From Candidatus Rokuibacteriota bacterium (lineage in GTDB: Bacteria; Methylomirabilota; Methylomirabilia; Rokubacteriales; CSP1-6): a stretch of 62,529 nucleotides of DNA. Below, piece after piece: positions 47,888-48,370 of the stretch. A model generated the notes under the pieces. The model was not told where the DNA came from and ran no database searches. It saw only the letters and a program-made list of their open reading frames with translations. Every line of letters begins with the position of its first letter. Position 1 is the first letter of the stretch. The position numbers and the translations under genes were made by a program. The DNA lies in NCBI GenBank assembly GCA_016866775.1, contig VGLJ01000002.1, positions 92,174 through 154,702 of the forward strand. Reading direction: 5' to 3'.

Positions 47888-48370
47888 ATGGCGATCAAGG
47901 TAGGCGATCGGCTGCCTGAAGGGACGCTGATGGAGCTCGGGGCTCAGGGCCCCGCGCCGGTCAACGTGTCCGAGGCGGCCAAGGGCAAGAAGATCGTGGT
48001 CTTCGGGATTCCGGGGGCGTTCACCCCGACGTGATCGCAGAAGCACGTGCCCGGGTTCGTGGCACGACACGGCGATCTGAAGCAGAAGGGCGTGGACGAG
48101 ATCTGGTGCGTCGCCACCAACGACGCGTTCGTCATGGGCGCCTGGGGCAAGGACCAGAAGAGCGAAGGCAAGGTGCGCATGCTCGCCGACGGCAGCGCCG
48201 TCTACACGAAGGCGCTCGGGCTCGAGCTCGATCTCGTCGCGCGGGGCATGGGCACGCGCATCCAGCGCTTCTCGATGCTCGTGCAGGACGGCGTGGTGAA
48301 GTCCGTCAACATCGAAGCGCCCGGCAAGTTCGAGGTCAGCGACGCCGACACGATGCTGAAGCAGGCCTAG
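47888..48370 (+). CDS. Prx5-type peroxiredoxin, predicted selenoprotein (Sec codon TGA at 48032-48034)
   Basis: 160 residues when the TGA is read as selenocysteine at position 49. The site reads [12 protein letters not shown], then TGA, then SQKHVPGFV. In Prx5-type peroxiredoxins the motif is PGAFTPTCS, so TGA replaces exactly the peroxidatic Cys. The rest of the fold is intact in the same frame (WCVATNDAFVMGAWG, ALGLELDL, GTRIQRFSMLVQDG). The catalytic Thr (TPT) and Arg (TRIQRF) are kept. A hairpin at 48046-48066 fits a SECIS. It reduces hydroperoxides with high efficiency. It is 2 bases before the Bcp gene. The alternative, a nonsense mutation at just this codon, is much less likely. Confidence 0.88.
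48046..48066 (+). promoter_or_regulatory. Candidate bacterial SECIS hairpin of the peroxiredoxin gene
   Basis: CGUGCC (48046-48051) pairs with GGCACG (48061-48066) around the loop CGGGUUCGU. The stem begins at nucleotide 15 counted from the U of UGA, and the loop has G in its second and third positions, as in bacterial SECIS elements recognised by SelB. Found by eye. Confidence 0.6.

Follow-up and report, generated by a model that had tools for sequence, protein, structure and literature searches.

Does the in-frame TGA in a peroxiredoxin gene of an uncultured, soil-type Candidatus Rokuibacteriota bacterium signal a damaged or shortened gene, or does it specify selenocysteine (Sec) at the residue on which catalysis depends? 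The frame lies in a window of 62,529 nucleotides, by which we mean the whole stretch of DNA that was analysed; its translation from 47888 to 48370 begins MAIKVGDRLPEG and ends LKQA*, and TGA occurs in frame just once, at 48032-48034. The features of the gene are as follows:

47888..48370, forward strand: predicted Sec-containing Prx5/type-II peroxiredoxin gene, 160 residues with TGA read as Sec (Pfam match, homologue and structure alignments)
47876..47881, forward strand: ribosome-binding site AGGAGG, with the ATG 6 nt further on (read directly from the sequence)
48032..48034, forward strand: TGA codon, putative Sec49, at the peroxidatic position (Cys in 92 of 92 close homologues)
48107..48109, forward strand: TGC codon, Cys74, candidate resolving Cys 25 residues beyond Sec49 (in the same alignment column as the second Cys of 1tp9)

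The Pfam Redoxin model matches the 160-residue product over residues 4-157 (3.3e-35, 121.5 bits) and spans the TGA, and the best solved relatives, 4f82, 1tp9 and human PRDX5 (1h4o), are type-II/Prx5 enzymes. Residue 49 aligns with the peroxidatic Cys of both poplar PrxII (1tp9) and the Burkholderia protein (4f82); together with the homologue alignment and the Redoxin match, this confirms the claim of an earlier, sequence-only reading that the TGA occupies the peroxidatic position of a Prx5-type frame. The active site, PGAFTPT-U, follows the P-x3-T-x2-(C/U) pattern, and P42, T46 and T48 are invariant when the protein is aligned with 92 homologues, 90 of which also have Cys in the column of Cys74, the second Cys at +25 that plant PrxII also has. 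The protein therefore shares its fold family, its PGAFTPT motif and its catalytic position with the Prx5/type-II group (PF08534; 1tp9, 1h4o, 4f82), and its second Cys at +25 with 1tp9, but would carry Sec where these enzymes have a peroxidatic Cys. Close to the active site it differs from the homologues in two columns that are otherwise near-invariant (Q51 in place of Ala, T77 in place of Val), and it has no Cys at 18, where most homologues do. A second Prx5 copy was not found in the same genome.

How widespread is the exchange at codon 49? All 92 close homologues (>50% identity, drawn from the same phylum, Pseudomonadota and Myxococcota), 12 same-phylum orthologues among them, have TGC or TGT there, and the alignment that had been proposed as a check for Cys/Sec exchange at this column accordingly holds Cys throughout, with identity to bacterial orthologues reaching 74%. 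Among 95 genomes of the phylum, 12 others contain an orthologue and none of these has TGA; nor was a TGA version found in a second genome among the 92 homologues, the 95 phylum genomes and two further phyla searched by motif. In the latter, the 10-residue active-site motif was absent from 195 genomes (the phylum of a Myxococcaceae MAG) and from 395 of the second phylum, using a pattern that misses motif variants. A maximum-likelihood tree nests the window protein in the Cys-type family; its terminal branch is long (0.41) and its exact place is poorly fixed. Since it sits inside this family, the simplest reading is that the gene underwent a derived Cys-to-Sec replacement. Three members of the same GTDB family (G020, G021 and G015; loci L036, L037 and L045) contain another Sec peroxiredoxin-like gene, with the motif AAFTPT-U-TRELNGF. 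We rejected these as orthologues on their identity of only 31-33%, and no gene of this type was found in the window's own genome when searched with the window protein.

A TGA seen in one genome could also have come about in an ordinary Prx5 gene of the Cys type, either by a mistake in sequencing or assembly or by a recent nonsense mutation. A single base turns TGC into TGA, the gene comes from a metagenome-style fragmented assembly, and a TGA confined to one genome offers no conservation to argue against a single-base error. The placement of the codon, on the other hand, is more than chance would readily give, because a single base change can turn the Cys version into a stop in 40 ways, of which five produce TGA and just one produces it at the catalytic codon 49. 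The rest of the gene is also intact. Mean identity to homologues is 0.60 before the TGA and 0.72 after it, a pattern similar to that of the other homologues (downstream minus upstream identity is 0.11 in the window gene and averages 0.08, sd 0.03, in the others), and 42 near-invariant columns 3' of the TGA are kept. The frame is thus open and conserved to 48370, as had been claimed, with undiminished constraint downstream.

The same observations bear on whether the TGA could be a working stop, leaving a 48-residue fragment and possibly a restart downstream, for instance at the GTG at 48047. This would need nothing beyond the standard code, and an ORF at 48047-48370 does exist; however, the active site would be incomplete in both pieces, the Redoxin match runs full-length across the TGA, constraint is equal on both sides and the machinery for Sec insertion is present (see below), and we regard a working stop as very improbable. 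Automatic annotation would nevertheless cut the gene at residue 48, which reading the codon as Sec corrects.

Bacterial Sec insertion calls attention to the RNA immediately downstream of the UGA, where two features are found:

48046..48066, forward strand: bSECIS-like hairpin CGTGCC-CGGGTTCGT-GGCACG (folding, published consensus)
48062..48067, forward strand: two rare codons in succession, GCA (2.3% of Ala) and CGA (4.8% of Arg), in or at the edge of the hairpin's 3' arm (codon usage)

In its simplest form, the hairpin pairs CGTGCC (48046-48051) with GGCACG (48061-48066) around the 9-nt loop CGGGTTCGT (48052-48060), giving 6 bp and -7.8 kcal/mol, whilst the best fold, at -12.3 kcal/mol, has 8 bp interrupted by one bulge and closes on a GGUU loop; the loop starts 18 nt after the UGA in the former and 20 nt in the latter. 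The 6-bp hairpin with a G-containing loop described from the letters alone therefore exists, although its start lies 11 nt after the TGA (14 from its T) and not 15. The published bSECIS rules, as set out in the legend to Fig. 2 of PMC13188914, specify a loop of 3-9 nt with G in its first two positions, a stem of 4-16 bp, a UGA-to-loop distance of 16-37 nt and an MFE <= -7.5. The window hairpin conforms to every one of them. Considering that the genome is GC-rich, controls on energy were required: 24% of the genome's Cys codons and 30% of synonymous recodings match the hairpin's energy, and we have accordingly rejected it as sole evidence. In short, the hairpin fits the rules and is weak evidence by energy alone. 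A combined rule (loop starting N(0-1)G[G/U], at +18 to +22, with an energy of at most -12) is satisfied by the window gene, by 12 of 12 other Sec genes, by 45 of 1200 in-genome Cys codons (3.8%) and by one of the 92 Cys orthologues, a result that is supportive and not decisive, since the -12 kcal cut-off was chosen after the energies were known. That 91 of the 92 Cys orthologues lack a rule-fitting hairpin at the right distance speaks against an error or nonsense mutation. Of the two rare codons, only GCA has a third base that pairs within the stem, and an Rfam scan of the locus returned nothing relevant.

The capacity to decode Sec is present in the same assembly (5.13 Mb in 159 contigs, 97.5% complete, 1.6% contaminated). 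The tRNA-Sec gene, selC, scores 70 bits (cut-off 47), with ARAGORN in agreement (anticodon tca), and selA, selB and selD all exceed their curated cut-offs; selA, selB and selC lie side by side on one contig (C43), and selD itself carries an internal TGA. The sel genes are on other contigs than the window, joined to its contig only by binning. A lack of Sec-decoding genes had been named as the finding that would count most directly against Sec at this codon, and with all four genes present this objection falls away.

Indeed, the host appears to have a large selenoproteome. A codon-usage scan for TGA-bridged open frames, covering 1.64 Mb (~32% of the genome) and so giving a lower bound, yielded at least 12 further genes with an internal TGA that clearly belong to families annotated or catalogued as selenoproteins. 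Five are AhpD/CMD-like and carry CxxU, three are UGSC, and there is one each of the CYCXC, deiodinase-like and MerB-like kinds, along with an OsmC-like Se protein that scores above its cut-off. In most of them the TGA falls within the family's known redox motif. Their positions in the same genome are:

L150:18999, L160:8722, L191:19276(-), L164:17252, L164:16660(-), L171:15663: other Sec genes
L178:15587, L188:13039(-), L195:878, L198:2419(-), L217:8187(-), L219:15216: other Sec genes, continued

A Sec-rich genome is to be expected here, because a Methylomirabilota MAG with 63 selenoprotein genes is cited in the review PMC13188914; it resembles the host in this respect and, by inference, belongs to the same phylum. 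With such machinery and so many Sec genes in one genome, and with the catalytic placement and hairpin described above, we consider an error or recent nonsense mutation improbable. Reading the TGA as a standard amino acid under an altered code is the least credible alternative, with a negligible chance of being correct: we found no support for it, ordinary genes of the window terminate with TGA, a tRNA-Sec with a TCA anticodon is present, and the TGAs inside genes coincide with redox positions in families that are annotated as (seleno)proteins.

Two further TGA-bridged frames deserve mention. On contig C12, TGA stands at the expected catalytic zinc-ligand Cys (CGI-U-GTD) of a zinc-dependent dehydrogenase (threonine dehydrogenase/IolM-like; L181:11060, +), and the scan found no SECIS-like hairpin there; an unusual Sec metal ligand and an error are both possible. 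On contig C13, a HEAT-repeat protein frame (L184:7008, +) reads HECSQ-U-GCC, has a strong hairpin that lies at +18, and belongs to a family that is not recognised as selenoprotein.

Is the same exchange seen elsewhere in the Prx5 family? With the window protein as query, no relatives were found among viral contigs. A scan of IMG/VR with the 10-residue motif, however, recovered T4-like marine phage contigs in which the peroxidatic codon of the common phage Prx5 is TGA; clamp, clamp-loader and dUTPase-like genes (recognised by eye) lie in the vicinity. When the search was widened, 12 contigs were found to have TGA together with the hairpin CTTCC-AGGTCT (or AGGGCT)-GGAAG, its loop at +18, and six Cys relatives to have lost the hairpin pairing:

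L224-L235, also L135 and L137-L141: phage Sec-Prx5 contigs (IMG/VR)

Like the window gene, the phage genes encode PGAFTPTU and a second Cys at +25, with a SECIS-like hairpin in the same codons; unlike it, they are phage-borne, belong to a different Prx5 branch and have the loop AGGTCT or AGGGCT. Named phage isolates, cyanophages among them, carry related genes by annotation ("peroxiredoxin", "peroxyredoxin antioxidant"). As an independent case of the same exchange, the phage genes support Sec in the window gene. On balance we lean towards the idea that Sec replaced the peroxidatic Cys separately in two branches of Prx5/PrxII, a Rokubacteria-like lineage and a T4-like marine phage clade, each with a SECIS hairpin in the same codons just 3' of the active site. 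If so, Prx5 would be a natural test case for Cys-to-Sec evolution, and the phage versions would carry the question of what Sec gains over to viral redox genes.

Taken together, the TGA at the catalytic column, the Sec machinery, the other Sec genes, the rule-fitting hairpin and the constraint that has been kept, as well as the lack of a second Prx5 copy and the independent phage cases, lead us to read the window gene as very probably a genuine selenoprotein: a Prx5/type-II peroxiredoxin whose peroxidatic Cys was replaced by Sec in its lineage. SelA would make Sec-tRNA(Sec) with selenophosphate from SelD, and SelB, bound to the hairpin just 3' of the UGA, would deliver it; machinery and hairpin are seen in the sequence, whilst delivery is what we propose from them. 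By the type-II Prx mechanism, Sec49 would then reduce H2O2 or organic hydroperoxides and become a selenenic acid, which could go on to bond with Cys74 as a selenenylsulfide, or to form a mixed selenenylsulfide with glutaredoxin or thioredoxin, and the same two proteins may recycle it. With the Cys-to-Sec change derived and so many close orthologues of the Cys type, the two forms could be cleanly compared to learn what Sec brings to a peroxiredoxin, be it in rate or in resistance to over-oxidation.

Sec peroxiredoxins with TxxU have been known since PrxU of Eubacterium acidaminophilum (PMC13188914, PMC9312934). In PrxU and the other Sec peroxiredoxins, as here, the peroxidatic residue is Sec and its context is PxxxTxxU, but PrxU (NF040737) represents another Prx subfamily, and we rejected that assignment for the window protein, which scores 25.5 bits against the curated cut-off of 270. 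In two selenoprotein catalogues (PMC13188914, PMC9312934), Prx is listed under PF00578 or COG1225 with TxxU, one of them adds a Redoxin-family PF08534 entry with UxxC, and a Sec Prx5/PrxII subfamily has no separate entry, although members may be counted under Prx. The window gene thus looks like a Prx5-type addition to a class of enzymes that is already known.

Finally, the gene has a second peroxiredoxin as its immediate neighbour:

48373..48840, forward strand: Cys-type Bcp/PrxQ peroxiredoxin gene, 2 nt 3' of Prx5 (profile match, gene order of relatives)

The two genes are probably in the same operon. The sequence-only reading had singled out a Sec Prx5 followed directly by a Cys-type Bcp; the adjacency holds, and its significance does not, because the Prx5-Bcp pairing is kept in several Rokubacteria relatives with a Cys Prx5, and we have rejected the neighbour as a special feature. 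The retention of this ordinary arrangement suggests that the gene was inherited vertically.
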